From: a virus | DNA: 23,877 nt | Reading direction: 5' to 3' (one strand) | IMG/VR virus record: IMGVR_UViG_3300043464_001246 | Span: 1-23,877 of that record | Shown: piece after piece, positions 6,889-23,877 of the stretch | Position numbering within the stretch: position 1 is the first letter of the stretch | Layout of the letters: each line of letters opens with the position of its first letter | Program-made: the position numbers and the translations under genes | Notes under the pieces: model-generated | The model's database searches: none | What the model was told of the DNA's origin: nothing | Seen by the model: the letters and a program-made list of their open reading frames with translations, nothing else

Positions 6889-6910
6889 TTCTTAGAATCA
6901 ATTAGGACGG

Positions 6911-6940: not shown

Positions 6941-6950
6941 CCTATTTTAG
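6919..6950 (+). repeat. 10-bp perfect inverted repeat overlapping terminator and RBS
   Basis: CTAAAATAGG (6919-6928) pairs perfectly with CCTATTTTAG (6941-6950). The left arm is part of the terminator hairpin. The right arm includes the first two bases of the AGGAG ribosome-binding site (6949-6953). The two hairpins cannot form together, so this is either an RNA switch or a protein-binding palindrome. Confidence 0.5.
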
Positions 6951-6962
6951 GAGATTTTGCAA

Positions 6963-7310: not shown

Positions 7311-7747
7311 TGTCAGAAACAGTAATTGTAACCGAAAATATAAATAAGGTAGTAATTGGTTCCCCAGGAACCCAAGGTCCTAGAGGTAAATCTATCCTCA
7401 ATGGAAACGGTGTCCCAGCAGACAACCTTGGCACTGAGGGAGATTTTTATTACGATAAACTTACAACAAGATTTTATGGTCCAAAACCACAAGAAACATC
7501 ATGGGCTGGAGCCACCAACTATTTATTAAGCACAAGCACATTAACCTATCCATTTTCAATTGGTCAGGTTACAGATGAGCAAACATACTGGGCACTTGAA
7601 ATAACCCATAATATGGGATATAACCCAAATGTGACTGTAAAAAATAGCGCTGGCGACATATTAGAAACAGGAATAGATTATAATAGTATTAACAAAATTA
7701 CACTGACAATGGCTCAACCATTCGGTGGGATAGCTTACCTATCTTAA
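7310..7747 (+). CDS. Tail-fibre-like protein with short collagen-like segment (145 aa)
   Basis: After a beta-rich start, PGTQGPRGKS is a minimal Gly-X-Y stretch. It is followed by ILNGNGVPADNLGTEGDFYYDKLTTRFYGPK, a motif common in phage adhesins where a trimeric collagen-like stalk meets a folded head. The C-terminal half (THNMGYNPNVTVKNSAGD...) resembles the THNLG-type terminal domain of the 469-aa fibre downstream. Translation is coupled to the previous gene by TAATG. A part in receptor binding or fibre assembly is likely from context. Confidence 0.65.
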   Translation: MSETVIVTENINKVVIGSPGTQGPRGKSILNGNGVPADNLGTEGDFYYDKLTTRFYGPKPQETSWAGATNYLLSTSTLTYPFSIGQVTDEQTYWALEITHNMGYNPNVTVKNSAGDILETGIDYNSINKITLTMAQPFGGIAYLS

Positions 7748-7761
7748 AGGAGAAATAGAAA

Positions 7762-9171: not shown

Positions 9172-9183
9172 AGGGAGTAGTAA

Positions 9184-9435
9184 ATGTCTGTAAAAAGATT
9201 AGTCCCTCTACATGCAGTAGTACTTGACTCAGATCCAATCACTGGACGAATTGGCGATATTTATTATAACAATTCTGAAGAAGAGCTTAGATATTTTGAC
9301 GGCTCAATATGGAATCCAGTCGGTGGAGCAATAACAGGAATACTTGACCATATACACACATATGATGGTGCAATATTTTCTGTGGAGTCTATTGAGGTTC
9401 CAGCTTCTGGTGTTATTGATGGAGGTACTCCATGA
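9184..9435 (+). CDS. Small fibre-associated protein (83 aa)
   Basis: The segment [24 protein letters not shown] is the same IYYNN...Y..G.W module that opens the 469-aa fibre. Here it is followed only by a short tail containing [21 protein letters not shown]. It may be a stand-alone fibre cap or adaptor. AAAGGGAG precedes the ATG, and the last codons overlap the next gene as ATGA. A virion function is inferred from the module and the operon. Confidence 0.6.
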
Positions 9436-11174
9436 GCGTAATAATAAAAACAAAAAGAGGAACCACAGAACAGTGGAATAACTCTACAACTCCACTTCAA
9501 ATTGGAGAACTTGGACTAGATACAACTCTTAATAAATTAAAAGCAGGAAATGGCACCAGTCTTTGGGAAGACCTTCCTTTTCTTACATCTGATGGTGGCG
9601 GAGATACTGGTGATATAACTTTTGACGGAGTTCAAATTATTGGTGCTGGAACAGCATCTGGAGATGGTTACGGACTAGGAACATTAGAGCTTGTGCCAGA
9701 TGGAGATATTACTTCAGATCAATATTTAATTATTGATCCTACCGCACCAAATCACATTCATATTCGTGCAGGTGGAACACAAGATGCTTCAGGAGCAGAT
9801 GTATTTATTGGTGGAGAAAAAAATAATGTTCGTGTTTCTGACGGAGGAAGATCTGTAAGCATTAGCACAAGACCAGAAACAGTTATTAATACTTATACAA
9901 ATTTAAACGAAACAAGCAATACTTCTTTTATAGTTAGCAGTACAGCAAATATTTATGTAGGCGATACAATGTATTATCCAGGCGGAGATATAGTTACTGT
10001 TGATTCTGTTACAGAAAACTCACCAAGTGCTGGTCTACAGACTATCACAGCAAACCTAAATGGAGCACCAGCTTCATTTGTTGCAGGAGAACCACATATA
10101 TTTAGCCATGAACAAGAATGGGAAAATTATTGGCAGTTTGGAGCAGATGGTGTTCTGTCTGGTCCAGGAGGTGGGACGCTAATTGTTTCTGGAATTAGTG
10201 GAGAGCCAGGAGATGATGTATTTGCTATTGTTGCAGATCAGAACCTAGTATTACAACATGGTGTAGGTGGAGCATACTTAAATGATTCAACCATTGCAAA
10301 CAATCATATTGCAACTATGGGAGATATTTTAGATGCAAATGATTATACCGATACCGCAATTTCAACTCTTGGAGATACTATAGATTCTGGATATATTCCT
10401 ATTACAGAAAAAGCAACTGCTGGTGGAGTAGCATCTTTAGATCTTAGCGGTAAAGTTCCATTAGAACAAATTGATACAAGTAGTCTTATAGGTCCAACAG
10501 GACCAACAGGACCAACAGGACCAACAGGTCCATCAGGTGCAGATAGCACAGTTCCTGGACCAACAGGTCCAACAGGTCCACAAGGTGACATAGGTCCAAC
10601 AGGTCCACAAGGTGACATAGGTCCAACAGGTCCACAAGGTGACATAGGTCCAACAGGTCCAACAGGGCCACAAGGTGACCCAGGCCCATCAGGCCCATCA
10701 GGCGCAGATAGCACAGTTCCTGGACCAACAGGTCCTACAGGCCCATCAGGTGCAGATAGCACAGTTCCTGGACCAACAGGTCCAACAGGCGCTACTGGTC
10801 CAACAGGTCCAGTAGCAGGCTCTGAAAATCAAATTATTTATAAAAATAGTTCAAATGATCCAGCGGGATCTGCAAACCTAACATTCGATGGAACAAATCT
10901 TTCTGTTGGTGGAAATATAAGAGCAACTAACTCTTCTGGTGATGAAGGCGGAGAAATATTTTTAAATAAAGCAGTTACAAATACTACTTTAAATGGTGGA
11001 GTAACTATTGACGTATATCAAAACAAACTTCGCTTTTTTGAACAAGGCGGAACCGCAAGAGGATATTATATAGACATTTCTACAGGAGGCTCATCAGCTT
11101 CAACAAACCTTTCATCTGGAGGCGGAGGAGGAAACGAAGGATCAGATATTATGAATATCATGGAAGCATGGTAA
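9432..11174 (+). CDS. Collagen-like tail fibre with Mtd_N-like head (580 aa)
   Basis: Residues 1-55 ([20 protein letters not shown]...[18 protein letters not shown]) fit the N-terminal domain of phage major tropism determinants, which attaches receptor-binding proteins to the virion. The middle is beta-rich. [31 protein letters not shown] module at about 300-350 recurs in the 739-aa fibre. Then a Gly-X-Y collagen-like stalk of GPT, GPQ and GPS triplets (about 352-463) is broken by two GADSTVP inserts. A C-terminal head follows, ending in a Gly/Ser-rich tail. The stalk should be a trimeric rod. The gene overlaps the previous one by ATGA. Confidence 0.82.
10486..10818 (+). repeat. Collagen-like coding repeat with 27-bp perfect tandem copies
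   Basis: The stretch encodes repeated Gly-Pro-Thr/Gln/Ser triplets. Within it the 27-base unit encoding QGDIGPTGP occurs three times without change at 10581-10607, 10608-10634 and 10635-10661. GGTCCAACA is repeated throughout. The identity at the DNA level implies recent expansion or ongoing slippage. Confidence 0.9.
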
Positions 11175-11178
11175 TCTA

Positions 11179-11193
11179 GGTATAACATATACC
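11179..11193 (+). promoter_or_regulatory. GGTATA palindrome, candidate late control element
   Basis: GGTATA-ACA-TATACC is a perfect inverted repeat with a 3-nt loop in the short gap before the gene at 11219. Its left arm shares the AGGTATAA box seen upstream of other late genes. No good -35 is visible. Confidence 0.35.
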
Positions 11194-11218
11194 ATAACTC
11201 GAAATAATAGGAGAAAAA

Positions 11219-11548
11219 ATGGCAACAATATCAAAACTACTAGCAAGAACAACGTTAAATACTACAAACACAACTGTTTTGTATACCGTTCCTGCTTCAA
11301 CAACAACAGTACTTACAAATATTATTATAAGTAATATTTCTGGTTCTGCAGCATCATTTAATTTAACATTACCAGACGCATCTGGAACACAGGTAGCATT
11401 TGCTACATCAGTATCAGTTCCAGCAAACAGCATTGCATCATTTGACCTTAAGCAGGTACTTGGTGGGTCTGGAACTCAAACAGTAATAGGATGGGCATCT
11501 GCCAACTCTGCACTAACAGCACATTTAAGCGGAGTCGAAATATCATAG
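11219..11548 (+). CDS. Beta-rich virion-type protein (109 aa)
   Basis: The protein is Ser/Thr/Ala-rich with alternating hydrophobic residues (TVLYTVPASTTTVLTNIIISN, AASFNLTLP, SVPANSIASFDL). This is the pattern of a single Ig- or jelly-roll-like beta domain common in phage tail-tip proteins. TAGGAG precedes the ATG. Its stop is one base from the start of the first of four tandem paralogues, so they are probably cotranslated. The fold is inferred from pattern only, and I recognise no specific family. Confidence 0.6.
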   Translation: MATISKLLARTTLNTTNTTVLYTVPASTTTVLTNIIISNISGSAASFNLTLPDASGTQVAFATSVSVPANSIASFDLKQVLGGSGTQTVIGWASANSALTAHLSGVEIS

Positions 11549-11549
11549 C

Positions 11550-11930
11550 ATGGCATATAATACATTTCCAGCAACTTCTTCAATCATAAAGTCAGTTCAA
11601 AGAGGCTCTACTGCTTCTGCTGGAAACGTAACAATATCACAAGTTAATACTGCAAAATCTTTTATAAATTCATTTTCTACATCATCATCAGGAAGCGTTG
11701 GAACAAACAGCTCAACATCTGGTACATTAACTCCTTCTGGAGGAAACGTTTCAGTTTCATCTCCAAGCTTTAACCCAGCTGGTGGAAGCTTTCCAAACTA
11801 TGTAGGTACAAGATCTTACAGCGGAGGATCAACTTCTTTAACGTCGGCATCATTTGGTGCGTTTATAGCAAATGCAACAACTATTACAACAACAGGTGCA
11901 TGCCGCTGGGAAGTAGTTGAGTATGCATAA
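11550..11930 (+). CDS. SIQRG-family paralogue 1 of 4 (126 aa)
   Basis: This is the first of four adjacent homologous genes. The shared pattern is an I-K-S-[IV]-Q-R-G-S start block, TASAGNVTIS with a KSF run, then a Gly/Ser-rich variable middle. A GTRS..GGSTSLTSA block and a C-terminus of GACRWEVVEY follow. The conserved ends and variable centre suggest a common fold with diversified surface loops. There is no enzyme motif. The start is one base after the preceding stop; the stop overlaps the next ATG. A virion surface or fibre role is inferred from location. Confidence 0.7.
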   Translation: MAYNTFPATSSIIKSVQRGSTASAGNVTISQVNTAKSFINSFSTSSSGSVGTNSSTSGTLTPSGGNVSVSSPSFNPAGGSFPNYVGTRSYSGGSTSLTSASFGAFIANATTITTTGACRWEVVEYA

Positions 11931-12313
11931 TGGGATCTAGAATATATCCAATTGCTTCTTCTCCAATTAAATCTATTCAGAGAGGTTCTGCGGCGTCAGC
12001 TGGAAACGTAACAATTTCTTCTGTAAATACTTCTAAATCGTTTGTCAGATCTTTTTCTACAGGAGCCGCAGGAACAGTTGCTGGAACTGGATCAACATCT
12101 GGAACATATAATCCATCTGGTGGTAACATATTTGCATCAGGAGGCGGAGGATTTATTTCAGGTGGAGGATCAGCACCTACTTATTCTGGAACACGATCTT
12201 TGTCTGCTGGAGGAACATCATTAACTTCCGCAAGATACGGTGCATACTTATCAAACTCAACAACTTTAGTTGTTGACGGAGCATGCAGGTGGGAGGTTGT
12301 TGAGTATAACTAA
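11930..12313 (+). CDS. SIQRG-family paralogue 2 of 4 (127 aa)
   Basis: It carries the same framework as paralogue 1: KSIQRGSAASAGNVTIS, KSFVRSFSTG, GTRSLSAGGTSLTSA and ending CRWEVVEYN. The middle is distinct, glycine-rich and contains ASGGGGFISGGGSAP. The start codon overlaps the previous stop as TAATG, and the stop overlaps the next gene the same way. The copy is intact. The DNA differs from its sisters at many third positions, so the duplication is not very recent. Confidence 0.7.
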   Translation: MGSRIYPIASSPIKSIQRGSAASAGNVTISSVNTSKSFVRSFSTGAAGTVAGTGSTSGTYNPSGGNIFASGGGGFISGGGSAPTYSGTRSLSAGGTSLTSARYGAYLSNSTTLVVDGACRWEVVEYN

Positions 12314-12699
12314 TGGCATCTACAATATTCCCACAAACATTGTCACCAATCAAATCTATTCAAAGAGGGTCAACAGCATCTGCTGGTAATATAACTATAT
12401 CTTCTATAGATACATCTAAATCTTTTATTAGATCTTATTCTACTGGTTCAGCAGGAAGCGTAGGAGTTTCTGGTTCTGAATCAGGAACACTAAGCCCCAC
12501 TGGATTTTATAATTTTGGTGGAACTGGCGGAGGTAATGCATCTTCAGGCGGTGGAAGTTTTCCAAGTTATGCTGGAACAAGATCAACTGGAGCTGGAGGA
12601 ACATCAATTACAGTTTCAGAATATGGCGCATATATAGTTAATTCAACTACAATAACTACAACTGGAGCATGTAGATGGGAAGTGGTGGAATACTCATAA
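12313..12699 (+). CDS. SIQRG-family paralogue 3 of 4 (128 aa)
   Basis: The framework is conserved (KSIQRGSTASAGNITIS, KSFIRSYSTGSAGS, CRWEVVEYS). The middle is TLSPTGFYNFGGTGGGNASSG, and this copy has an altered third block (STGAGGTSITVSEYGAYI). It is coupled by TAATG on both sides. The aromatic insertion in the variable centre distinguishes it from the other copies and may indicate a different binding surface. Confidence 0.7.
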   Translation: MASTIFPQTLSPIKSIQRGSTASAGNITISSIDTSKSFIRSYSTGSAGSVGVSGSESGTLSPTGFYNFGGTGGGNASSGGGSFPSYAGTRSTGAGGTSITVSEYGAYIVNSTTITTTGACRWEVVEYS

Positions 12700-13076
12700 T
12701 GTCTATTAAACAATATCCTGAAACTTCACAAGGAGTTAAATCTATTCAAAGAGGTTCGACTGCATCTGCTGGCAATGTAACAATATCTGCAGTAGATACA
12801 TCTAAGTCTTTTGTAATTTCATTTTCAACTGGTTCTGCTGGAACAGTAGCAATTAATAGCTCTGAATCTGGAACTCTTACTCCTAATGGAGGATCTTGTG
12901 CTTCACAAGGAAATGGATCTAATAGCGGAGGATCCTGGCCAACATATAGCGGGTCAAGAAGTTTATCTGGAGGATCAACATCATTATATTCTGCGGAATA
13001 TGGTGCACACTTAACAAATTCAACCACACTTACCACTACTGGTTCTTGTCGGTGGGAAATAGTAGAATACTACTAA
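12699..13076 (+). CDS. SIQRG-family paralogue 4 of 4 (125 aa)
   Basis: The start at 12699 is preferred over an earlier in-frame ATG (12675) because it lies in the TAATG junction used by all the copies and gives the same N-terminal alignment. The framework is SIQRGSTASAGNVTIS, KSFVISFSTGSAGT, GSRSLSGGSTSLYSAEYG and CRWEIVEYY. The variable middle (NGGSCASQGNGSNSGGSWP) carries an extra cysteine and a tryptophan. The cluster ends here; the next gene has its own ribosome-binding site. Confidence 0.7.
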   Translation: MSIKQYPETSQGVKSIQRGSTASAGNVTISAVDTSKSFVISFSTGSAGTVAINSSESGTLTPNGGSCASQGNGSNSGGSWPTYSGSRSLSGGSTSLYSAEYGAHLTNSTTLTTTGSCRWEIVEYY

Positions 13077-13089
13077 GAGGAGAATATAT

Positions 13090-13443
13090 ATGACTAATTG
13101 GATACAATTAAAAGATGGGGTAGCTTTTGCTTATGTTAATTCATCAAATTTTGTTGCAAATTCTATTCCTATAGAAGACTCAGTTGACCCAAATACAATT
13201 ATGGCAAAAAAATATGTAGACGGTCAATGGGAAGAGGCAGAGCTAATTCACTTTGTAGAAGAAATTCTAGGAAATAAAGTACTTAGAGTTAATTCAACAG
13301 TGTTTTCTTCAGATGTTACTGGAGATATTGTTGGACCTGAAGTAAAAGCAATGTGGACCAAAAATGAAGATGGTCAATATCAGCCACCAGCTACAATTGC
13401 AGAGGCAACCATATACGACGAGCATTTGTTCAACCAAGAGTAG
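13090..13443 (+). CDS. Uncharacterised virion-region protein (117 aa)
   Basis: AAGAGGAG lies seven bases before the ATG. The protein begins MTNWIQLKDGVAFAYVNSS. It has an acidic, aromatic composition, with WEEAELIHFVEEILG in the middle and VKAMWTKNEDGQYQPP toward the end. It has no cysteines, membrane helix or Gly-X-Y repeats, and I do not recognise a family. Its location between the paralogue cluster and the long fibre suggests a structural or assembly role, which is only context evidence. Confidence 0.55.
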   Translation: MTNWIQLKDGVAFAYVNSSNFVANSIPIEDSVDPNTIMAKKYVDGQWEEAELIHFVEEILGNKVLRVNSTVFSSDVTGDIVGPEVKAMWTKNEDGQYQPPATIAEATIYDEHLFNQE

Positions 13444-13466
13444 CCGTTTAATAGACAATATTAAGG

Positions 13467-13472
13467 TATAAT
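13467..13472 (+). promoter_or_regulatory. Extended -10 candidate (late promoter)
   Basis: TATAAT in the context TTAAGGTATAAT, 20 bases before the 739-aa fibre gene, with no good -35 at normal spacing. The AAGGTATAAT box also occurs before the gene at 21299, and variants of it occur before other late genes. Confidence 0.35.
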
Positions 13473-13492
13473 TAAGGAAGAGGTATACGTAA

Positions 13493-15712
13493 ATGGCAAT
13501 ACAATTTCCAGAGGAACTAGATTCCTTTTTAAATCCGCAACCTACGGATTCAGTTGCCATTGTCTCACATGCTGAACAACATTCAAATGCCAATGACGCC
13601 ATTGAGGCCCTAGAAGCTAAAGTAGGAACAGATAACTCTTTAGTATCAACAAGTCACGATTATAGAATTAGACAGCTGGAGTTAAATCCAGTAACTGGTA
13701 CAGCAAGTAAAATAGAACAAATTGTTGTGAATAACACAGGATCAACTCTTTTAAAGGGTCAGGTGGTATACGCTTCAGGATCTGTGGGAGCATCTGGTAA
13801 ATTAAGAGTATCTCTTTCTTCAAACTCTACAGAATCTGGTTCATCAAAAACATTTGGTGTTTTAGCGGAAAACATTATAGATGGCGGAGAAGGAATTCTT
13901 GTAACTGAAGGGTTACTTGAAGGAGTAGATACTACTGGAGCCGCAGACGGAGATCCAGTATGGCTAGGACCAACGGCGGGATCAAAGATATTTGGTCTTA
14001 CAGAAAAACCATCAGCACCAGCACATTTAGTATTTTTAGGAATTGTTGTAAGAGGCGAAAACGCTAATAACGGATCCATATTTGTAAAAATTCAAAATGG
14101 ATTTGAGTTAGAAGAACTTCACAATGTATCTATAGCGACGCTTTCAGATAATCAAGTATTAAGATATGACGCATCAACACAATTGTGGAAAAATGAAACA
14201 ATTGATGATTTATTTGACCCAGCAGGTGCAGCAGCGACTGCACAAAGTAACGCAGAAGATTACGCAGACGGCCTTGCCGTTAACTACGACCCAGCAGGTG
14301 CAGCAGCGACTGCACAAAGTAACGCAGAAGATTACGCAGACGGCCTTGCCGTTAACTACGACCCAGCAGGTGCAGCAGCGACTGCACAAAGTAACGCAGA
14401 AGATTACGCAGACGGTCTTGCAACAAATTATGATCCAGCGGGTTCAGCTAGTACAGCAGAAACAAATGCAAATACTTATACAGATACAGCGCTTAATGAC
14501 TACACTCCGACAGTATCATTAGATACAACAGTTGGTGGATATGGATATTTAAAGTCAGCAGATCTTTCTGGATATGCAACAGAGTCATATGTTGGAACAG
14601 CAATTGGCAACATTATAGATGGAGCCCCAGCTCTTTTAGACACATTAAATGAATTAGCAGCAGCTATTGGAGACGACGAAAACTTTGTAACAACAATAAA
14701 TAATGATTTAGCAACAAAAATAACGGCTTCTAGTTTAGATACTCTTACAAATAAAACAATATCTATTCAGAGCGGTCTTACTTCCGTAGTTGGATATGAC
14801 GATATAACAGGTTTTTATGGTCAGTCAGATATTCCAGTAATACAAGGCGGGCTTGATAAAGGCGGAAGAATAAATATTAGTTCAGAAGGAGTAATAACAC
14901 AGTCTGCCCCTGGAACTGGATATACTTCTGGATTAGCAATTATTGGTGGAGGAACAAGAGTTGCGATAGGAACTTCAAACAATACTCTTATTGGTAACCT
15001 ATCTGACTTTAACGCAGCTTTGCTAGATGCAGATTTTGCAACAACCGTAGATATTACAGATGCAATTCAAGATGCCAATGATTATACAGATACAGCAATA
15101 GCAGGTCTTGGAAATGATATTGAAGCTGGATATATTCCAGTAACAGAAAAAGCTACAGCTGGTGGAGTAGCTTCATTGAATTTATCTGGAAAAGTTCCAG
15201 ATACTCAATTAGATATAGATTCAACAATTCAAGACGTAGCATCTTCAATGATTACTGGCGGAACTCATACAAATATCTCTACATCTTTTGATAACGTTAC
15301 TAAAAAACTTAGTTTTTCTACAACCCCATTAACACAAGACCAAATTCAAGATTTTGTCGCACCATTATTCACACATACTCAGCATACAAATGTTACAGCA
15401 ACATATGATGATGACAATAATAGAATAGTTTTAAGTGCTTCAGGTGGTAGCGGCGGTGGAGCCTCAGTAACAATTTCTGCAACAGCCCCAACAAGTCCCA
15501 CATTAGGAAATATTTGGCTAGATTCTGACAACGGAAGTACTTTTATTTGGGATGGAGTATACTGGGTAGAAATAGGAGGAGCGGGTACTGCAGAAGCAAT
15601 TGCAGCAGTTGCATCTTCTGCGCCAGCAAATCCGATTCTTGGAAGAATTTGGTTAAACTCATCAACAGCTAAAACATATATATATGATGGATCATACTGG
15701 GTTGAAATATAA
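13493..15712 (+). CDS. Long modular tail fibre with 24-aa repeats (739 aa)
   Basis: The N-terminal region (1-210; HAEQHSNANDAIEALEAKVG, then LLKGQVVYASGS and FGVLAENIIDGGEG) is a known type of phage fibre attachment module. Residues 242-337 are four 24-residue repeats DPAGAAATAQSNAEDYADGL., predicted to form a trimeric coiled coil. Next are a YVGTAIGNIIDGAPALLDTLNELAAAIGDD module and the [19 protein letters not shown] module shared with the collagen-like fibre. The C-terminus (THTQHTNVTATYDDDNNRIVLSASGG) matches the next small gene. Two GxIWLxS..TYIYDGSYWVEI-type units end it. GGAAGAGG precedes the ATG. It is a probable receptor-binding or stalk protein. Confidence 0.82.
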   Translation: MAIQFPEELDSFLNPQPTDSVAIVSHAEQHSNANDAIEALEAKVGTDNSLVSTSHDYRIRQLELNPVTGTASKIEQIVVNNTGSTLLKGQVVYASGSVGASGKLRVSLSSNSTESGSSKTFGVLAENIIDGGEGILVTEGLLEGVDTTGAADGDPVWLGPTAGSKIFGLTEKPSAPAHLVFLGIVVRGENANNGSIFVKIQNGFELEELHNVSIATLSDNQVLRYDASTQLWKNETIDDLFDPAGAAATAQSNAEDYADGLAVNYDPAGAAATAQSNAEDYADGLAVNYDPAGAAATAQSNAEDYADGLATNYDPAGSASTAETNANTYTDTALNDYTPTVSLDTTVGGYGYLKSADLSGYATESYVGTAIGNIIDGAPALLDTLNELAAAIGDDENFVTTINNDLATKITASSLDTLTNKTISIQSGLTSVVGYDDITGFYGQSDIPVIQGGLDKGGRINISSEGVITQSAPGTGYTSGLAIIGGGTRVAIGTSNNTLIGNLSDFNAALLDADFATTVDITDAIQDANDYTDTAIAGLGNDIEAGYIPVTEKATAGGVASLNLSGKVPDTQLDIDSTIQDVASSMITGGTHTNISTSFDNVTKKLSFSTTPLTQDQIQDFVAPLFTHTQHTNVTATYDDDNNRIVLSASGGSGGGASVTISATAPTSPTLGNIWLDSDNGSTFIWDGVYWVEIGGAGTAEAIAAVASSAPANPILGRIWLNSSTAKTYIYDGSYWVEI
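14216..14503 (+). repeat. 72-bp tandem repeat inside fibre gene
   Basis: Three copies at 14216-14287, 14288-14359 and 14360-14431 are identical apart from the last part of the third. A diverged fourth follows at 14432-14503. Each unit encodes 24 residues (DPAGAAATAQSNAEDYADGLAVNY). The DNA-level identity suggests recent unequal exchange that changes stalk length. Confidence 0.95.
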
Positions 15713-15743
15713 TTTATGATAAAATATACTACAGGAGATTAAC

Positions 15744-16019
15744 ATGACTTCATCTTTAGGTTTTCCAACAAGCCCTACAACAAGTCAACAATATACTGTT
15801 GGCTCAAGAGTTTTTATTTGGGATGGATCAGTTTGGAATTTAGTTTCTGCTGGAGTTACTCAAGAACAGATTCAAGATTATATTGATCCACTTTTTACAC
15901 ATTCTAGTCACTCAAATATAACCGCAACATATGACGATGCAGCAAATAAAATTATTTTAAGCGCTTCAGGTGGTAGTGGTGGAGCAGCAGACATAGGCTT
16001 AATTGTAGGCTTGTCTTAA
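15744..16019 (+). CDS. Small fibre-related protein (91 aa)
   Basis: The N-terminal half (TSQQYTVGSRVFIWDGSVWNLV) and the C-terminal half (TQEQIQDYIDPLFTHSSHSNITATYDDAANKIILSASGG) are close to the C-terminal modules of the preceding 739-aa fibre, in swapped order. The gene looks like a detached, reshuffled fibre end. AGGAG lies before the ATG. It could be a second subunit of the fibre or a cap for it. No independent family is recognised. Confidence 0.65.
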   Translation: MTSSLGFPTSPTTSQQYTVGSRVFIWDGSVWNLVSAGVTQEQIQDYIDPLFTHSSHSNITATYDDAANKIILSASGGSGGAADIGLIVGLS

Positions 16020-16031
16020 GGAAAGGTATAG

Positions 16032-16037
16032 TATAAT
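16032..16037 (+). promoter_or_regulatory. TATAAT with leaderless spacing
   Basis: TATAAT (16032-16037) ends exactly six bases before the ATG at 16044, as in the four other leaderless candidates. The -35 is weak (TTGTCT at 16011-16016 with a 15-bp spacer). AAGGTATA lies just upstream. Confidence 0.4.
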
Positions 16038-16043
16038 AAGACT

Positions 16044-16358
16044 ATGGCAACTTTTAGCAACGCTAAGGAAAATTTAGTAGGAACATCTGCAGTTACTTTG
16101 TTAACAGCCGACTCTCCTACTGTAGTAACTGGCTGTTCTATTGCTAATAGACATGGATCTACAACATCAGTTTCTTTATATGTTCAAGAGGGATCAGAAA
16201 TATATTATGTTGCTAAAGATAGATCAATTGACGGCGGACACAGTTTTGAAGCTATTTCAGGCAATAAACTATTTTTAAAAACAGGAGATATTCTAAAAGC
16301 CATAGGCGCAACAGAAGATTCTTTTGATATAATTGTTTCAGTATTGGATGCGATATAA
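16044..16358 (+). CDS. Beta-rich virion-region protein (104 aa)
   Basis: The sequence pattern (NAKENLVGTSAVTLLTADSPTVVTGCSIANRHGSTTSVSLYVQ) is that of a small beta-sandwich protein. It is similar in style to the protein at 11219, which has TVLYTVPASTTTVLTNIIISN and AASFNLTLP in corresponding places. It probably starts as a leaderless message or is read through from upstream. The stop overlaps the next ATG (TAATG). A capsid, tail or fibre decoration role is inferred from neighbours. Confidence 0.6.
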   Translation: MATFSNAKENLVGTSAVTLLTADSPTVVTGCSIANRHGSTTSVSLYVQEGSEIYYVAKDRSIDGGHSFEAISGNKLFLKTGDILKAIGATEDSFDIIVSVLDAI

Positions 16359-16600
16359 TGAACCCAGATTTTGAGATAATAGACCTAAGTTTTGCAGATA
16401 AGACATTTTATGGGTTTAGATTAGACCCAGATACAGGTAGGGCAACGGTAGAGAGAATTAATGACGGAAGTCCAGTATCCTTACCGCAAGAAGACCTAAT
16501 CCGAAAGGAAGACTACCGTAATTGGTTTTGGACAAAACATACGGTACAATTTACTTGGGGATTAGATAAAAATACACATATGCTAATGGAGATAATATGA
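16358..16600 (+). CDS. Uncharacterised small protein (80 aa)
   Basis: The protein is compact and aromatic (FADKTFYGFRLDPDTGRATVERIND, EDYRNWFWTKHTVQFTWGLDKNTHMLMEII). It has no cysteine cluster and no membrane helix. The start overlaps the previous stop as TAATG, and its end overlaps the giant fibre gene as ATGA, so it is translated with both. Its stoichiometric coupling to the 1392-aa fibre suggests an assembly factor or an adaptor. I do not recognise a family. Confidence 0.6.
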   Translation: MNPDFEIIDLSFADKTFYGFRLDPDTGRATVERINDGSPVSLPQEDLIRKEDYRNWFWTKHTVQFTWGLDKNTHMLMEII

Positions 16601-19600
16601 CACAGCTAATTGATTTAGGAAAACTTAGATTTTATTTTGCAGGACTATACAACCCAGCAACGGTTTATGAGCTAAACGACGTTGTTAAGTTTGGTGGTAA
16701 CGTATACGTTTATATTTATGCATTAGCTGCATCCAATAAGGTTCCAACAGATACAACATATTGGGCACTAATGATTGAAGGATTAAAGTTTAGCGGACAA
16801 TTTAATCCATCTACAGAATATAAGGTAGGAGACGGAGTTGCTCACGGTTCTACAGTTTATATTTCTATTAAAACTGGAACAGGAAACACTCCACCAAATC
16901 CAGAGTATTGGTCAAAAATTACAGACGGAATTCAATTTGAAGGTGCTTATAGCGGATCAGCTTCTTATCAAAAAAATGACGTTGTAACTTATGGCGGAAA
17001 CACATACATTGCCGTTCAAGATACAACAAACAATAAACCAACAGTAGATGCATACTGGGATGTTTTAATCGAAGGTGTAGATGCAACTGGTGTTTATAAT
17101 GATTCAGCCACATATGTTCTTAATCAATTAGTAGCTTATGGAAATGCTTTCTACAAGTGTATTGCGGAAACAACTGGTAATGAGCCAACAGATACAGCAT
17201 ACTGGGAATTATATCTACAAGGTTTAGGGCCACAAGGCGCATGGAGTGAAACACAAACATATTATAAAAATGATATAGTTGTAAATGGATCAACTGTTTA
17301 TATATACAAATCAGACCAGCCAACATCTGGAAATCCAACTACATCTGTTATTTATTGGCAGGTCCTTACTTCAGGTATTACAACTCGTGGAGATTGGGCT
17401 CCATCAACAGAATATTATAGCGGAGACGTTGTAACTCGTGGAGGTAATACATTTATTACCAGCGAGTTTCATGCATCATCAGCAGCGTTTTCAACAGATT
17501 TAACAGCAGGTAAATGGACAAAATATAACGGCGGAGTTAGATATCGTGGACCATGGGCAGCTCAAACAGTTTATTTAGAAGGAGATATTATTACTGACGG
17601 GGAAAATGCCCGTATTGCTAATAAAGATTTTACTTCTGGAGATTATTTAGCTGACAATGAAGACGATTGGGACATCCTTGCAAAAGGCGCAAGTGGTTCT
17701 CTTCCAGCTCAGGGCGGTCGTGCAGGATATGTTTTAACAACAGATGGCTCAGAGGCATCGTTTGAAAGAGACATTGTTGCTCTACGATTTGGAGACGGAA
17801 CCGACGCAGCTGATTTTGAACAAGCAACTGACGATTCTGGAAATCCTTTAACGGATGTAGCATCATTATTCGTTCAAAACTCAGACTCATTTATTCAGTT
17901 AGCAATTGCTAATGCTGGAAATGATGAAGCCTCTTCAACAGACTTTATTGCTTATACTCATGATGGAGATAATGCATCTGGTTGGATTGACATGGGTATT
18001 ACTGGAGACGCATTTGAAGCTGCAGAGTTTGGAATTACTGGGCCTAACGATGGATATATATTCGTAGCCCCACCAAAACTTAATGTAAAAGAAGTTACAT
18101 CTAAATCAGTATCCAGTTTTGTTGCAACATTAACTTCAACATCACATGGATTTTCTATAGGAGATATTGTAGCCGTATCTATTGGCGATGTAGATTATGA
18201 TGGGTCAAAAACAATTACTGCAGTAAGTACAAATACTTTCTCATACGCAGCGCCAGGAGTTGGAGATGAATCTTCAACATCAGTTACAGGCGGAGAAGCC
18301 TGGAAGCCAAACGGTAATGGAGATTTAGTATTAGCTACAAGCAATAATGGCAAAAGAAATGCAATTATTTTAGCAGCAGGAGGATTTAACTCTGGTCGTG
18401 AACAAGTAACTATTATTCCAGACCAAAACGTACACATTGAAATTGACACAGCTTCAACAAGTGCCACAACAGGAGCACTAACAGTTGTCGGTGGCGTTGG
18501 TATTACTGGAGATCAGTTTATTGCTGGTGACTTAACAGTTATCGGAAACGTAGATTTACAGGGAGTTACAAAACTTCCAGTAGGTGCTGGAGCAACAGCA
18601 TACGAAACATCAGCAGGATTAACAGACGCAGTTGTTATTGCAGCTGGAACATCTAACGCATTCGTACAAAATGCTTTAGTTAACCTAGGAACAGGAACAT
18701 CTTCATCTGCAGACTATATTGCATACGCAGCAGAAGGAGACAACGTTTCTGGATGGATGGATATGGGTATTACAAATGCCAACTTTAATGATCCTTCATT
18801 TGGAGTAACTGGTCCTCACGACGGCTACATATTTATGTCAGCCCCAGAAGGAACAACTGGCGCAGGAAATCTTGTAATTGCAACAGATAACACTGGAACA
18901 GATAATAAGATTATATTTGCAGCTGGTGGTTTATTTACTGGTAATGAGCAAATGGCAATTACGCCAAATCAAAATATTCATATTGAAATTGCAACACCTT
19001 CTATATCCCCTACAACTGGAGCACTAACACTTGTTGGTGGTCTCGGTGTTCAAGGTGATATCAACGTAGCTGGTAACGTAAGCATTGCTGGTGAAATTAC
19101 ATTCGGAGGTTCAGGAACAGTTGTAGAAACTGAAAACCTTGCAGTTGTAAATCCAATGGTATTCGTAGCAACTGGAAACCCAACAGGAGACGGACTAACA
19201 TTCGCCTTCCTCGGAGAATCAAGAAGCGCAAGACAAGGATTAGTTCTTACAGAAGAAATCTCATACAGAGACATAACAGACAATGTTGCTACTTTAGTAA
19301 CTACAAATTCACATTTATATGAAGTAAATGACACAGTAGTTGTTTCAGGTGTAGACGATCTAGCAAGCCCAAAGGTAGTTATCGTATACTCTGTATCATC
19401 TAACGTAGTAACATTAACAACAAACGGAGTACATGGATTATCAACAGGTCAACAAATTGACGTTGTTGGTGTAAATGCAGCCGTAAATGGAACTGCATAT
19501 ACAATTACAGGAACCCCTACAACTTCAACTCTTACATACGCAAAGACAACATCAGATGTTGCACCTTCACCAGTTTCAGCTGGTACTTTGCAAAGAGTAA

Positions 19601-20775
19601 ACCTTCCAAATATTTTCAACGGCTCATATACAATTACAGCCGTTCCAAACAATACATCATTTAAATATGCTAGAACAAATGCTAACATAGCATTATCACA
19701 GCCTTCTAGAGTATTTACAACGGTAGTTAGCTACTCATTAACAAATGGTGTAGCAACACTAGTTTTAACAGAAGCCCCTACTGTTACAGTAGGAAGTCAA
19801 ATTACAGTTTCTGGTGTTGATTCTAGATTAAACGGTGTTCGTACAATTACAGCACGTAGTACTTCTGCTCCATTCTCAATATCTTATGCAGACACTGATG
19901 ATGATATTGCATCAACAACATTAACACAAACAGTTTCTGCAACAATTTCAAGTAGAAATCGTACATCTGGAGTATCAACTCTTACAACTTCAGCAGCACA
20001 TGGATTTATTACTGGAGAATCTGTAACGATTGCAAACTTATCATCAACATTTAATGGTACATTTACAATTGCCTCAACCCCAACAGATACAACATTTACA
20101 TACGCACAAGCATTAGCAGATGTTACTGAAACAGCAGGTGCTGGTACAGCCACAACAACCAGACCAAACTTTGGAGCGTATTCACAGAATGGATACCTTG
20201 GAGCATCTGTTGTAACAGATCCACTACGTGGACAGTACACAGGTATTGCACGTAACCAAGCAAGACAAGTTTGGTACTTTTTGGGAGGGCTTTCAGAAAA
20301 GCCTTCAGATACAATTGACTTCTCAGTACCAGGAACAACCTTTACTAGAGAAGACCTAAACGTAGATACACTCGAAGCAAGAATGGTTCTACTAGATAAA
20401 GATGCTTGGTTGCCATTGCACGGAGCATCAAAGAGATACGTAGACTTAACACCTACAATATTAAATTCGTCTGGAACTTTAGTTGCTCATAGATATAATA
20501 TAGCAGCTGAAAATACAGAAGTTGGTGGAACTGGAGTATATATGATTAATCATACAACAGCGGTTACACTAACATTGCCAGCTACACCAGTAGTTGGAGA
20601 TACAATTGTTATAACTGACATATCTTCTGCTGGCGCAGCAACAAATTATATTACAGTTGCTAGAAACGGTGAAAGAATTCAGGGATTGCTAGAAGATTTA
20701 GTAATTGATATTAATTCAGCATCAATTAGATTAACATACGCAAATTCAACAGCAGGATGGAGACTAATAGCATAA
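16597..20775 (+). CDS. Giant modular tail fibre/adhesin (1392 aa)
   Basis: Residues 14-370 are seven units of about 50 residues (pattern Y..G.VV..GG..Y......P....YW..), resembling carbohydrate-binding modules of the chitin-binding CBM5/12 type. Residues about 415-655 and 673-840 are two copies of a larger module (GWIDMGIT...GPNDGYIF...NVHIEI...TGALTVVGGVGITGD and its partner). Residues 496-569 and about 887-1190 hold repeats with HGF..G..V.V.....NG..TIT.V....TF.YA, two of them nested. The C-terminus has a PLHGASKRYVDLT stretch and a beta-rich end. It is the largest adhesin in the window, probably the distal receptor-binding fibre. It overlaps the preceding gene by ATGA. Confidence 0.82.
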   Translation: MTQLIDLGKLRFYFAGLYNPATVYELNDVVKFGGNVYVYIYALAASNKVPTDTTYWALMIEGLKFSGQFNPSTEYKVGDGVAHGSTVYISIKTGTGNTPPNPEYWSKITDGIQFEGAYSGSASYQKNDVVTYGGNTYIAVQDTTNNKPTVDAYWDVLIEGVDATGVYNDSATYVLNQLVAYGNAFYKCIAETTGNEPTDTAYWELYLQGLGPQGAWSETQTYYKNDIVVNGSTVYIYKSDQPTSGNPTTSVIYWQVLTSGITTRGDWAPSTEYYSGDVVTRGGNTFITSEFHASSAAFSTDLTAGKWTKYNGGVRYRGPWAAQTVYLEGDIITDGENARIANKDFTSGDYLADNEDDWDILAKGASGSLPAQGGRAGYVLTTDGSEASFERDIVALRFGDGTDAADFEQATDDSGNPLTDVASLFVQNSDSFIQLAIANAGNDEASSTDFIAYTHDGDNASGWIDMGITGDAFEAAEFGITGPNDGYIFVAPPKLNVKEVTSKSVSSFVATLTSTSHGFSIGDIVAVSIGDVDYDGSKTITAVSTNTFSYAAPGVGDESSTSVTGGEAWKPNGNGDLVLATSNNGKRNAIILAAGGFNSGREQVTIIPDQNVHIEIDTASTSATTGALTVVGGVGITGDQFIAGDLTVIGNVDLQGVTKLPVGAGATAYETSAGLTDAVVIAAGTSNAFVQNALVNLGTGTSSSADYIAYAAEGDNVSGWMDMGITNANFNDPSFGVTGPHDGYIFMSAPEGTTGAGNLVIATDNTGTDNKIIFAAGGLFTGNEQMAITPNQNIHIEIATPSISPTTGALTLVGGLGVQGDINVAGNVSIAGEITFGGSGTVVETENLAVVNPMVFVATGNPTGDGLTFAFLGESRSARQGLVLTEEISYRDITDNVATLVTTNSHLYEVNDTVVVSGVDDLASPKVVIVYSVSSNVVTLTTNGVHGLSTGQQIDVVGVNAAVNGTAYTITGTPTTSTLTYAKTTSDVAPSPVSAGTLQRVNLPNIFNGSYTITAVPNNTSFKYARTNANIALSQPSRVFTTVVSYSLTNGVATLVLTEAPTVTVGSQITVSGVDSRLNGVRTITARSTSAPFSISYADTDDDIASTTLTQTVSATISSRNRTSGVSTLTTSAAHGFITGESVTIANLSSTFNGTFTIASTPTDTTFTYAQALADVTETAGAGTATTTRPNFGAYSQNGYLGASVVTDPLRGQYTGIARNQARQVWYFLGGLSEKPSDTIDFSVPGTTFTREDLNVDTLEARMVLLDKDAWLPLHGASKRYVDLTPTILNSSGTLVAHRYNIAAENTEVGGTGVYMINHTTAVTLTLPATPVVGDTIVITDISSAGAATNYITVARNGERIQGLLEDLVIDINSASIRLTYANSTAGWRLIA
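16636..17699 (+). repeat. Seven-fold carbohydrate-binding-like repeat
   Basis: Seven consecutive coding units of about 150 bp in the giant fibre each carry the Y-x-x-x-D-x-V, Y-G-x-x-Y and Y-W positions. The seventh is the most diverged (the aromatic pair is replaced by DW). DNA identity between units is low, so this is an old expansion. Confidence 0.75.
18082..18303 (+). repeat. HGF-type domain inserted in first copy of duplicated module
   Basis: Residues 496-569 of the giant fibre (VTSKSVSSFVATLTSTSHGF...TFSYAAPG...) sit between GPNDGYIFVAPP and GDLVLATSNNGK. In the second copy of the same module (about 18780-18900) the corresponding parts are joined by only a few residues. Confidence 0.65.
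19258..20164 (+). repeat. HGF-type repeat array with nested copy
   Basis: Four related units are visible. The first unit is split: its front half ends at VVVSGVDDL (19362), and its back half resumes at LPNIFNGSYTITAVPNNTSFKYA (19603). A complete second unit (19363-19602, 80 codons) lies between. Two further intact units follow, at about 19705-19950 and 19951-20164. Confidence 0.65.
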
Positions 20776-21254
20776 TGGCAACATTAACAAATTTATTAAC
20801 GCAATCTACAGGATCAGTTCCACCAGGAACTATTATATCCTATGGACATTCAACGCTACCTAGCGGATACTTATCATGTAATGGTGCTGCTGTATCTCGG
20901 TCAGCATATTCAGCACTCTTTAGTGCAATAGGCACAACCTATGGCGCAGGAAATGGATCTACTACATTTACATTACCAGATCTTCGTGGAGAGTTTTTAC
21001 GTGGATGGGATAATAGCCGTGGAATAGATAGCGGAAGAGGAATTGGAACTTTTCAGGACGGAATGTTCGTAAACCACACACACACTACTGGTAACTTTAT
21101 GGACACTGATTTTGGTTCAAGAGGTACACACGATGGACCACACTTTACATCAGCTACTGGACGTAGCTCCAGAACTACTTCTACTGCAAGTACAGGCGGA
21201 GGCGCAGAAACTCGCCCACGAAACATTTCAGTTCATTATTGTATTAAATTCTAG
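20775..21254 (+). CDS. Phage tail collar domain protein (159 aa)
   Basis: PPGTIISYGHSTLPSGYLSCNG and YGAGNGSTTFTLPDLRGEFLRGWD are the hallmark blocks of the phage tail collar domain, at about residues 18-80. Then comes a His/Ser/Gly-rich tip (NHTHTTGNF, GTHDGPHF) and a RPRNISVHYCIKF end that is standard in fibre tips. Start at 20775 is used because it forms TAATG with the fibre stop; an earlier in-frame ATG lies inside the fibre gene. The domain normally sits at the distal end of fibres and binds receptors. Here it is a separate protein, translated right after the giant fibre. Confidence 0.9.
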   Translation: MATLTNLLTQSTGSVPPGTIISYGHSTLPSGYLSCNGAAVSRSAYSALFSAIGTTYGAGNGSTTFTLPDLRGEFLRGWDNSRGIDSGRGIGTFQDGMFVNHTHTTGNFMDTDFGSRGTHDGPHFTSATGRSSRTTSTASTGGGAETRPRNISVHYCIKF

Positions 21255-21263
21255 CATAACCTA

Positions 21264-21292
21264 TTGACTAGAATACTTTTAAAAGGTATAAT
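21264..21292 (+). promoter_or_regulatory. Sigma70-type promoter for a leaderless mRNA
   Basis: TTGACT (21264-21269), a 17-bp spacer and TATAAT (21287-21292), then six bases to the ATG at 21299. CTATTGACTAGAATA matches the promoters at 577 and 1639, and the -10 lies in AAGGTATAAT. Confidence 0.75.
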
Positions 21293-21298
21293 ATATAT

Positions 21299-21628
21299 AT
21301 GAAATCTTATTTATATCATCCAGAGTTTTTATATTATTTAGGAGAAGAAGAGGCTTTTGAAAGCCCCCTAGAGCCAGGTACATTTTTGCATGCGTCCAAT
21401 GCTACAGATAAATCCCCAGATTTTTCCATGACAGACAAATTCCCATACTTTATTGATGGAGAGTGGGTTTTGAGAGATAAAGATAAGTCTTCATCTATTA
21501 GTCCAAATAATCAAATATCTATGGCTGGATCCTATATTCCATATGCTTTAGATATTAATGATCAAAGATCAGAACTTCTGTCTAACGGATTTACAGAAGA
21601 ACAAGTAAAAGATATATTGGGTCTATGA
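21299..21628 (+). CDS. Tail-fibre-assembly-like protein (109 aa)
   Basis: The opening MKSYLYHPEFLYYLGEEEAFESPLEPGTFL follows the Y-H-P-E-x-x-Y-L-G...E-S-P-L-E-P-G pattern of phage tail-fibre assembly proteins. These are small chaperones encoded just after the fibre tip. The middle (FPYFIDGEWVLRDK) also fits. The end (ALDINDQRSELLSNGFTEEQVKDILGL) looks like a small helical tail. It starts a new transcription unit with a strong leaderless-type promoter and overlaps the dioxygenase gene by ATGA. Function by similarity of pattern only. Confidence 0.7.
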   Translation: MKSYLYHPEFLYYLGEEEAFESPLEPGTFLHASNATDKSPDFSMTDKFPYFIDGEWVLRDKDKSSSISPNNQISMAGSYIPYALDINDQRSELLSNGFTEEQVKDILGL

Positions 21629-22236
21629 CAGTAAATAAAGAAAAATTAGCTCCAGGAATATATTCATATTCTGGAGTTTTTCCAGAATCATTAGAATACA
21701 TATCTAAAATAGAAGAGCTTGTTAATTTAAAAAAAATTGCCTGGGTTCCAAGTTTTAACAAAAAACATACTTCTGAAGAAGATGCTAAAAAATTTTTTAG
21801 ACAGGTAGAGACAATAGGACTTCCTTTAGAATTTCAAGTACCAGATAATGTAGATAAAAAATCTGAATCAAATTCAGTTGTGTTTGAATTTTCAAAATTA
21901 CTAAAAGATAGTTTTGATATTTATTTAAAAGAGTATGTAAATGAATACGGAATATCTTTATCCGAACAAGAACCTTTTGGGTTACTAAAATATGGCAACG
22001 GGAGTAAGTTTGGAAAACATATTGATAATGGAATGATGTTCAATAGAACAGTTTCTTTAGTTTATTATGCAAATGATGATTATGTCGGCGGAGAAATATA
22101 CTTTGATCAGTTTGATTTAAAGATAGTTCCACAAAAAAATCAGCTACTTCTTTTCCCTTCAAACTATATATATAGTCACTCAATCAGCGAAGTATCTAGT
22201 GGCATAAGGTATGCTATAGTTTCATTTTATAAATAA
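21625..22236 (+). CDS. 2-oxoglutarate/Fe(II) dioxygenase, prolyl-hydroxylase-like (203 aa)
   Basis: The metal triad is visible. H132-x-D134 lies in GKHIDNG and the distal H185 in YSHSISEV. R195, ten residues later, would bind the 2-oxoglutarate carboxylate. GGEIYFDQFDL between them is the usual core strand block of prolyl-4-hydroxylase-type enzymes. These use O2 and 2-oxoglutarate to hydroxylate proteins, nucleobases or small molecules. The length is typical for phage members. The substrate is unknown. The collagen-like fibre with many prolines in the same region is one candidate. The gene overlaps the assembly-like gene by ATGA. Confidence 0.85.
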   Translation: MTVNKEKLAPGIYSYSGVFPESLEYISKIEELVNLKKIAWVPSFNKKHTSEEDAKKFFRQVETIGLPLEFQVPDNVDKKSESNSVVFEFSKLLKDSFDIYLKEYVNEYGISLSEQEPFGLLKYGNGSKFGKHIDNGMMFNRTVSLVYYANDDYVGGEIYFDQFDLKIVPQKNQLLLFPSNYIYSHSISEVSSGIRYAIVSFYK

Positions 22237-22243
22237 GGCGGAG

Positions 22244-22957
22244 ATGTTTAGAAATAAAAATATAATAGAGTTTATCTCTATAGGCGAGTATTACAATAAT
22301 GTAGTAACAGATTTGCCGTCACCTGCATCAAAATTTGTTCCTCAGTGGTGGAAAAATATGCAGCCATATGTAGATAATAAGCTAAGAATACATGGACATA
22401 ATTCTTCTGCTACTGGAAAAAAATGTATGCCAATGTTTGATGCTATTACTTCTGGATACATTATACCTTTATGGGCAGATGTTATGGTTATAAAAGCAAA
22501 CGAGGGACACTCTGTTGTTTGGAAAACTCAGCAGTCCATATTTGGAGTCCATGATCCAAGACAGTCGGATGGAGTAGATGTTCCAGAAGGCTATTCGGAA
22601 TCAGCATTCAAGTATAATAATCCTTGGGTTATTAAAACTCCACCAGGATGGTCATGCTTAATAACACATCCAATTGGATACCCATCTCTTCCATTTAAAA
22701 TGATATCAGCAATAATAGATACTGATATTTATCCGCAAGACATAAATCCTGTCTTCTGGATAAAAAAAGATTTTGAAGGAATGATTGAGTCTGGTACTCC
22801 AATGGTTCAAGTAATTCCAATTAAAAGATCTTCTTGGAATTCAAAATTTTCTTCGTATACAGAAGAGCAGCATATGTATAATCAGGAAAAAAACATTGCT
22901 AAAACTATAATAAATAATTATGTAAAAAATATTTGGCAAAAAAAGGAGTATAAGTGA
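22244..22957 (+). CDS. Uncharacterised phage protein of DUF6065-like type (237 aa)
   Basis: Conserved-looking blocks are PSPASKFVPQWWKNM, KCMPMFDAITSGYIIPLWAD, TPPGWSCLITHP and AIIDTDIYPQDINPVFW. I associate this pattern with a hypothetical family seen in tailed phages near fibre genes, often with hydroxylases and halogenases; the family name is a tentative recollection. There is no membrane helix and no catalytic triad I can name. GGCGGAG lies just upstream of the ATG. The end overlaps the halogenase start (GTGA), so the two are translationally linked. A role in the same modification pathway is possible. Confidence 0.6.
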   Translation: MFRNKNIIEFISIGEYYNNVVTDLPSPASKFVPQWWKNMQPYVDNKLRIHGHNSSATGKKCMPMFDAITSGYIIPLWADVMVIKANEGHSVVWKTQQSIFGVHDPRQSDGVDVPEGYSESAFKYNNPWVIKTPPGWSCLITHPIGYPSLPFKMISAIIDTDIYPQDINPVFWIKKDFEGMIESGTPMVQVIPIKRSSWNSKFSSYTEEQHMYNQEKNIAKTIINNYVKNIWQKKEYK

Positions 22958-23877
22958 TAGACAAGATTAATAGCATTGTTATTGTTGGCGGAGGTTCTGC
23001 TGGCTGGATGGCAGCATCGACATTAATTAGGTTTTATCCCGAAATAGATATAACCCTTGTAGAATCTGAAAATATTCCAACAATCGGAGTCGGAGAAAGT
23101 ACTCAGGCATCAATAACAAACTGGTTTAATATTTTGGGCGTAGATATTGTAGACATGATGAGAAGCACAGACGCTTCGTACAAGCTAGGAATTAAGTTTA
23201 CAAATTTTTATGAAAAAAACGATGGAGGGTTCTTTTACCCATTTGGCAGAGGAGTCTTTGACAAATATCACAATCAACTAGAATCTGTAGCGATATGGAA
23301 CTTTAAAAAATTATTTTATAAAAATATAAAAAATTCAGACTATGCAGATTGTTTTTACCCTCAAATGCAATTAATAAATTTAAATAAAATTACAGACTCA
23401 AAAGAACTTGATAGGTTTAATTTAAGAAAAGACGTTGCTTTTCATTTTGACGCATTAAAAATGGCCGATTATTTAAAAAATAAATTTGCAATTCCAAGAG
23501 GAGTTAAGCACGTAGTCTCTGACGTTGTTGAGGTTTTAAAATCTAATATTGGTGTTGAAACATTAAAATTAAGTAATGGAAATAGTTTAAATGCAGACCT
23601 TTTTATAGACTGTACTGGATTTAAAGCATTGCTTATAGGAAAAGAAATGAATTCAGAGTTTACAAGTTTTGAAAACAAGCTGCCAGTAAATAAGGCATGG
23701 GCTGTACAGATACCATACAGAGATAGAAATAGCGAAATGGTAAATTACACAGACTCTACCGCTCTTTCTTCTGGTTGGGTGTGGGCTGCCCCTCTGTGGT
23801 CACGCATAGGAACTGGCTACGTTTATTCAGATAAATTTATTTCTCCAGAAGATGCGTTAGAAGAGTTTAAAGAACAC
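22954..23877 (+). CDS. Flavin-dependent tryptophan halogenase homologue (partial, 308 aa)
   Basis: The frame starts at GTG, five bases after GGAG, overlaps the previous stop, and stays open to the window edge, so the C-terminus is missing. GGGSAGWMAA is the FAD-binding loop, and VGESTQASI follows. YKLGIKF carries K77, at the place of the catalytic lysine (K79) of PrnA. W275-V-W277-A-A-P280 stands for the W-x-W-x-I-P signature, with Ala where Ile is usual. These enzymes use reduced flavin, chloride or bromide and O2 to halogenate tryptophan or other indoles. Relatives occur in phages. Substrate and activity are unproven, and the usual catalytic Glu lies beyond the edge. Confidence 0.88.
   Translation, partial: MIDKINSIVIVGGGSAGWMAASTLIRFYPEIDITLVESENIPTIGVGESTQASITNWFNILGVDIVDMMRSTDASYKLGIKFTNFYEKNDGGFFYPFGRGVFDKYHNQLESVAIWNFKKLFYKNIKNSDYADCFYPQMQLINLNKITDSKELDRFNLRKDVAFHFDALKMADYLKNKFAIPRGVKHVVSDVVEVLKSNIGVETLKLSNGNSLNADLFIDCTGFKALLIGKEMNSEFTSFENKLPVNKAWAVQIPYRDRNSEMVNYTDSTALSSGWVWAAPLWSRIGTGYVYSDKFISPEDALEEFKEH

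Follow-up and report, generated by a model that had tools for sequence, protein, structure and literature searches.

A phage gene cassette behind tail-fibre genes, encoding a prolyl-hydroxylase-like oxygenase, a DUF6065-like protein and a halogenase, as a candidate tail-modification island

We analysed a gene cassette that lies directly behind tail-fibre genes in the IMG/VR record IMGVR_UViG_3300043464_001246. The window, that is the whole stretch of DNA that was analysed, is the entire 23,877-bp viral record of an uncultured freshwater phage, and it ends inside the last gene of the cassette. The cassette encodes a 2-oxoglutarate (2OG)-Fe(II) oxygenase, a DUF6065-like protein and a flavin-dependent halogenase. 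The features concerned are the following.

16597-20775, + strand, tail fibre protein, 1392 aa (PHROG 9851 and 5073)
20757-21254, + strand, tail collar-domain protein, 165 aa (PF07484; weak match to a short-tail-fibre receptor-binding domain)
21264-21298, + strand, promoter TTGACT-17-TATAAT of leaderless type (element at 21264-21292), conserved in contigs L010 and L019
21299-21628, + strand, fibre-assembly-like protein, 109 aa (weak match, PHROG 35518)
21625-22236, + strand, 2OG-Fe(II) oxygenase, prolyl-hydroxylase-like, 203 aa (PF13640)
22244-22957, + strand, DUF6065-like protein with a predicted dUTPase fold, 237 aa (PHROG 7084)
22954-23877, + strand, VirX1-type flavin-dependent halogenase, first 308 aa (PF04820; cut by the contig end)
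9432-11174, + strand, fibre with an Mtd_N N-terminus and a collagen-like Gly-Pro-Thr stalk (residues 354-461), 580 aa (PF01391)
3561-4571, glycosyltransferase
4658-6592, ribonucleotide reductase (RNR) gene

As the initial annotation had described, the three genes are closely packed directly after the fibre-assembly-like gene. The assembly-like and 2OG genes overlap by 4 bp, a 7-bp gap separates the 2OG and DUF6065-like genes, and the DUF6065-like and halogenase genes again overlap by 4 bp. The order fibre, collar, assembly-like, 2OG, DUF6065-like, halogenase, halogenase is kept in the two closest contigs, L010 and L019. The assembly-like assignment of the first reading frame is a weak one, with PHROG 35518 matching at E = 0.0053 over residues 1-59 only and with partial tblastn matches. 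Beyond its halogenases, L010 encodes a distant DUF6065-type protein, an N-acetylglucosamine (GlcNAc)-type glycosyltransferase and a CMD-domain protein.

The leaderless-type promoter predicted for this group of genes was recovered: TTGACT-17-TATAAT ends six bases 5′ of the ATG of the fibre-assembly-like gene (21299), and the same element precedes the same gene in L010 and L019. Across the window, 13 promoter-like sites were found versus 15.7 expected from shuffles. Because shuffled sequences yield as many such sites, the evidence for the promoter is its conservation and not its score. A second copy, TTGACTAGAATA...TATAAT, was seen at positions 1639-1677, ten bases 5′ of an ATG, and the two copies may represent a phage-specific promoter type.

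The 2OG protein matches PF13640 with E = 1.8e-13 (51.7 bits, above the curated cut-off of 27). The metal triad H132-x-D134 and H185, as well as the 2OG-binding basic residue R195, are present, in agreement with the intact H-x-D...H...R previously noted, and H132 and H185 are conserved in 66 relatives. With a profile of these relatives, the closest solved structures were the prolyl 4-hydroxylase (P4H) of B. anthracis (E = 2e-27), a Chlamydomonas plant-type P4H, PHD2 and procollagen lysyl hydroxylases, while TET-type enzymes ranked last, far behind. By this sequence comparison the family is nearest to protein prolyl and lysyl hydroxylases, and peptidyl-proline hydroxylation is its predicted activity. 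The P4H of B. anthracis hydroxylates synthetic peptides (PMC8968730). The closest isolate match of the window protein is in Synechococcus phage S-H9-1. A 2OG protein of this phage, possibly the one matched here, superposes on human EGLN3 (PMC12774648).

PHROG 7084 matches the DUF6065-like protein over its full length (E = 2.7e-50, residues 5-234 of 237). The match to Pfam DUF6065 (PF19541) is below threshold, at 18.7 bits versus a gathering cut-off of 26.6, and the corresponding protein of the sister phage L294 reaches PF19541 with E = 2.2e-25 and 90 bits. An AlphaFold2 model of the window protein (pLDDT 95.9, pTM 0.90) gave trimeric dUTPases as top Foldseek matches (VIA Z about 10 over about 120 residues). 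In the family profile, the counterparts of dUTPase motifs 3 and 4 are G-[IV]-[VI]-D-[TS]-D and G-x4-Q. Among 101 relatives, neither motif 2 (PRS) nor the C-terminal motif 5 was found, and only the motif-3 Asp and the motif-4 Gln of the catalytic motifs are retained. Cys61, Gly71 and Pro186 are invariant in the same set; Lys59, Asp66, Asp79, Asp159, Asp161 and Arg195 are nearly so. A dUTPase fold that has lost motifs 2 and 5 is unlikely to be a dUTPase, and the role of active dUTPase was discarded on account of the lost catalytic motifs. The model thus describes what is probably a dUTPase-fold protein whose dUTPase activity has been lost. DUF6065-like proteins also occur in about 49 records of haloarchaeal tailed viruses, all annotated as hypothetical (for instance HF2, contig L004, 6905-7789), where the genes lie on the opposite strand to the end of the baseplate/VP1 region, without a halogenase.

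The fold and the retained motif-3 Asp would suit a system directed at nucleotides or DNA bases, in which the dUTPase-fold protein works alongside the halogenase and a 2OG enzyme of TET-like type. Nitrogen signalling or DNA repair has been proposed for cyanophage 2OG genes (PMC3037559, PMC9146016), and antibiotic protection is another published reading of such phage genes (PMC9964418, PMC2984593). We regard nucleotide or DNA modification as very improbable, since the DUF6065-like protein has neither dUTPase motif 2 nor motif 5, prolyl and lysyl hydroxylases are far nearer to the 2OG profile than TET is, and the gene arrays of the sister phages described below contain no replication genes.

The prediction of a tryptophan-halogenase homologue was confirmed for the N-terminal 308 residues. 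The protein matches PF04820 with E = 4.3e-73 and carries GGGSAG at residues 12-17 (flavin adenine dinucleotide motif), K77 in YKLGIKF, aligned to the conserved lysine of flavin-dependent halogenases, and WVWAAP (WxWxxP) at 275-280. Its best PDB match is VirX1 of cyanophage Syn10 (6qgm; E = 1.1e-71, about 40% identity). The protein stops at residue 308 because the record ends there; the relative in L010 is complete at 525 aa and contains GLSAGFIEPLES. Window positions 23758-23877 match the second halogenase gene of L010 at 84% over 112 nt, in a stretch common to the tandem halogenases (L010 4853-7868). A second halogenase copy just beyond the window end may therefore explain the contig break. 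In L010, about 65 residues are missing from the centre of the second halogenase (6423-7868), the DCTGF region among them, and its C-terminal end is hydrophobic; this copy is either degenerate or the product of a chimeric assembly.

The window RNR is 66% identical to RNRs of Streptomyces phages of about 130 kb, and this kinship makes an actinobacterial host likely. More than 590 IMG/VR viral contigs carry close RNR relatives, which marks an abundant freshwater phage group. Among longer records sharing the window RNR at 86-95% identity, DUF6065 was present in 22/45 and a halogenase in 7/45. An array of 2OG and DUF6065 genes lies behind the fibre genes in 14 of the 16 lineage regions that were fetched, typically in the order 2OG-2OG-DUF-DUF-2OG-2OG and usually without a halogenase. 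The array members that were checked are bona fide PF13640 proteins, and one DUF protein belongs to PF19541. L010, which has the halogenase version, and five of the array regions alike carry a LamG-type gene downstream, so that cassettes with and without halogenase appear to fill one slot. The two versions occur together in one sister contig (L309, G015; 4344-20000), where 2OG-2OG-DUF6065 accompany a PYYNPYSN-repeat gene and a halogenase lies 10 kb further along, with a DUF6065 gene on the opposite strand.

The gene 5′ of the arrays usually encodes an fn3 or PASTA domain, followed by a long Pro/aromatic repeat and a C-terminal Hint-like stretch. The repeats include PYFPPFFPFFPPFF, FFAPPGFFSPPG and PYYNPYSNPPPYY, with units such as PPFFPPFF. 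Such a gene was found within three genes 5′ of the array in 11/14 array-bearing records. It is the immediate 5′ neighbour of 8/16 arrays versus 16/253 genes overall (p = 3.5e-7, relatedness ignored). The linkage was also examined in reverse, with contigs fetched solely by DNA encoding PPFFPPFF, blind to the enzymes. Within 4 kb, the 76 contigs with enough downstream sequence had a 2OG gene in 60 cases, DUF6065 in 51, both in 49 and either in 62. Outside the main related group, 2OG-DUF-2OG genes of a phage-like contig in a Sphingobacteriales bin (L466) lie near the gene for a Pro/aromatic-repeat protein whose end is Hint-like. In two Azospirillum loci (L462, 5652-8723; L465, 5236-8675), an RTX protein with (PSYY)n-type Tyr/Pro repeats is encoded beside DUF6065, 2OG and one more oxygenase-like gene; three further Azospirillum-family DUF6065 matches showed neither 2OG nor repeats. 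A general partnership of bacterial DUF6065 with 2OG enzymes or halogenases was rejected, as neither was present at most of 80 bacterial loci. Hint/intein-like ends (Cys...T-x-V-L...G-D), assigned by eye and from sub-threshold Pfam matches, were seen at L294 13479-14954, L309 4344-5300 and L466 3875-5089. They hint at possible self-processing of tail-region proteins.

We propose that an exchangeable island for tail modification sits behind the receptor-binding fibre genes, the cassette being one of its versions. While virions are being made, its 2OG-Fe(II) enzymes would hydroxylate side chains in repeat-rich tail or fibre proteins encoded by the same virus, proline being the most likely target. 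The DUF6065 protein would assist them, either by binding the substrate or through an enzymatic activity of its own. In the window version, one or two VirX1-type halogenases might also halogenate aromatic side chains of these proteins, if they act on protein at all, and the outcome could affect adhesion or stability. Protein modification is the most likely role because prolyl-hydroxylase-like enzymes adjoin proteins with an unusually high proline content. What the data show is the gene content, the conservation of the slot, the modelled fold, the kinship of the hydroxylases and the linkage of 2OG/DUF6065 to Pro/aromatic-repeat proteins, which are thereby candidate substrates. That such an island covalently modifies repeat-rich proteins of the tail or fibre is our best explanation, held tentatively and at slightly under an even chance. 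For its core, protein modification by 2OG and DUF6065, the chances are close to balanced. Halogenation of a fibre residue is the least supported step and appears unlikely.

The initial annotation had proposed a covalent modification system for fibre residues, with hydroxylated proline and halogenated tryptophan. A fibre-linked cassette of protein-modification type is supported; the links to collagen and to tryptophan are weaker. The collagen-like stalk and the glycosyltransferase invoked with it are present upstream, yet 10 kb and 17 kb from the cassette. Collagen was discarded as the usual substrate, as GPx repeats occur at only 3/37 loci that have both a halogenase and DUF6065 and were absent beside the sister-phage 2OG/DUF arrays, save at one locus with a lone DUF6065. 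The collagen-stalk fibre of the window is therefore a possible but unsupported substrate, and proline hydroxylation draws its support from the Pro/aromatic-repeat partner of the sister phages.

Nearness to fibre genes was scored with a composition rule for fibre-like genes checked on annotated genes; the DUF6065 genome scans were run with a narrow alignment. Of 42 halogenases, 26 had a fibre-like gene within 3 kb, as did 25 of 48 DUF6065 genes but 0/24 controls with the helicase gene UvsW, and the halogenase follows tail-fibre or structural genes in 10/15 annotated phages inspected. The refuting outcome named in the initial annotation, genes that occur apart from fibre operons in most phages, was thus not seen. 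In cyanophages Syn9, S-RIM44 and S-CREM1, tail-fibre genes are followed, in this order, by a small reading frame, one or two halogenases, a DUF6065-like gene (homology established by phmmer) and several 2OG genes. In seven further annotated phages, a halogenase together with a 2OG gene follows fibre or structural genes. Among 80 halogenase loci, 60 had 2OG and 18 had DUF6065 within 5 kb; conversely, a halogenase was present at 12/80 DUF6065 loci. No DUF6065 was seen near UvsW (0/24) or within 5 kb of RNR (0/32).

Several observations weigh against the proposed role. All 32 RNR genes of the lineage also have a fibre-like gene within 3 kb, and fibre closeness alone is therefore weak evidence. 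Genes for 2OG enzymes are near UvsW in 14/24 cases; a 2OG gene beside a halogenase is thus not specific, being no more frequent than in this control, and was dropped as evidence. Many DUF6065 genes have neither a 2OG nor a halogenase neighbour. The PPFF loci come mostly from related phages: at 70% gene identity they form 23 groups, 10 of which have 2OG/DUF, and at 50% one group takes 85/101 loci. No halogenase was found near the PPFFPPFF repeats (0/76 contigs), and the window itself lacks a Pro/aromatic repeat. Its collagen stalk is distant, and the occurrence of collagen repeats does not follow that of the cassette. Finally, fibres adjoining halogenases showed no enrichment in Tyr or Trp, which leaves the suggested tryptophan halogenation without compositional support.

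Some of these points would be expected if the site behind the fibres were an accessory-gene hotspot that gathers moron genes, the enzymes being functionally unconnected to the fibre. Besides the equal closeness of the RNR genes, the gene content of the slot varies, and in the remaining 5/15 annotated phages (S-B64/S-H35, HTVC008M, S-MbCM6, S-PM2) the halogenases lie away from fibre genes. A hotspot accounts less well for 2OG/DUF6065 arrays that recur right behind one protein type, which in turn predicts 2OG/DUF6065, or for similar pairings with repeat proteins in Azospirillum. We consider it rather unlikely.

A somewhat more plausible, though still doubtful, alternative is that these are auxiliary metabolic genes: in the infected cell, their products would hydroxylate and halogenate some small molecule, or else modify a surface glycan, and fibre proximity would then only reflect late expression. 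VirX1 is reported to accept many free aromatic compounds in vitro (PMC8407142), and a halogenated metabolite or a capsule decoration has been predicted for a jumbo-cyanophage cluster (Iyer et al. 2021, PMC7824862). The GlcNAc-type glycosyltransferase and CMD-domain protein after the L010 cassette point in the same direction, and glycosyltransferase and carbamoyltransferase families recur at related loci. Against this, the 2OG family is closest to protein hydroxylases, the sister-phage arrays come after repeat-rich tail-region proteins, and the cassette of the window revealed no conserved enzyme that would make a substrate.

Modification of tail proteins, if it takes place, would mean that phage tails undergo chemical maturation, and that genome annotation misses a layer of control over host range or stability. 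More broadly, phages and some bacteria might possess a dedicated post-translational modification system, made of 2OG enzymes, a repurposed dUTPase-fold protein and sometimes a halogenase, that produces hydroxylated or halogenated adhesive or toughened fibres from Pro/aromatic repeats of tail or surface proteins; this wider proposal is speculative and on balance improbable. The gene context offers a concrete alternative, with named candidate substrates, to the substrate-less explanations given earlier for cyanophage halogenases and 2OG enzymes, namely antibiotic synthesis, DNA repair or nitrogen signalling, and DUF6065 gains a modelled fold and a genomic setting. Viral collagen hydroxylases exist. 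According to a 2012 survey of collagen-like proteins carried by phages, prolyl hydroxylases are absent from bacteria and viruses (PMC3368898). In the open-access literature searched, no link of these genes to repeat-rich tail proteins was found, and DUF6065 was not named.

Each component can be compared with known proteins. The 2OG protein has PF13640 and the H-x-D, H and R residues in common with P4H/PHD-type prolyl hydroxylases (B. anthracis, 3itq/5hv0; PHD2) and lysyl hydroxylases (LH3; 6ax6), whereas the phage enzymes are short, single-domain and, in sister phages, arrayed beside tail genes. The DUF6065-like protein is modelled with the fold of trimeric dUTPases but, at 237 aa, has added helices and its own invariant residues. 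The halogenase shares its FAD motif, conserved lysine and WxWxxP with VirX1 of Syn10, the window copy being cut short by the contig end. In Syn9, the N-terminal half of gp42 reads like VirX1 and the DUF6065-like gp43 follows. The jumbo-cyanophage cluster likewise brings together a halogenase and several 2OG enzymes in one phage, with a carbamoyltransferase; it was read as a metabolite or capsule system, and the available part of its description mentions no fibre, repeat-protein or dUTPase-fold partner (PMC7824862). The chemistry proposed here for the repeat proteins would resemble that of plant extensins or mussel foot proteins. Overall, every enzyme comes from a known family, and what is new is the gene combination and the candidate substrate.

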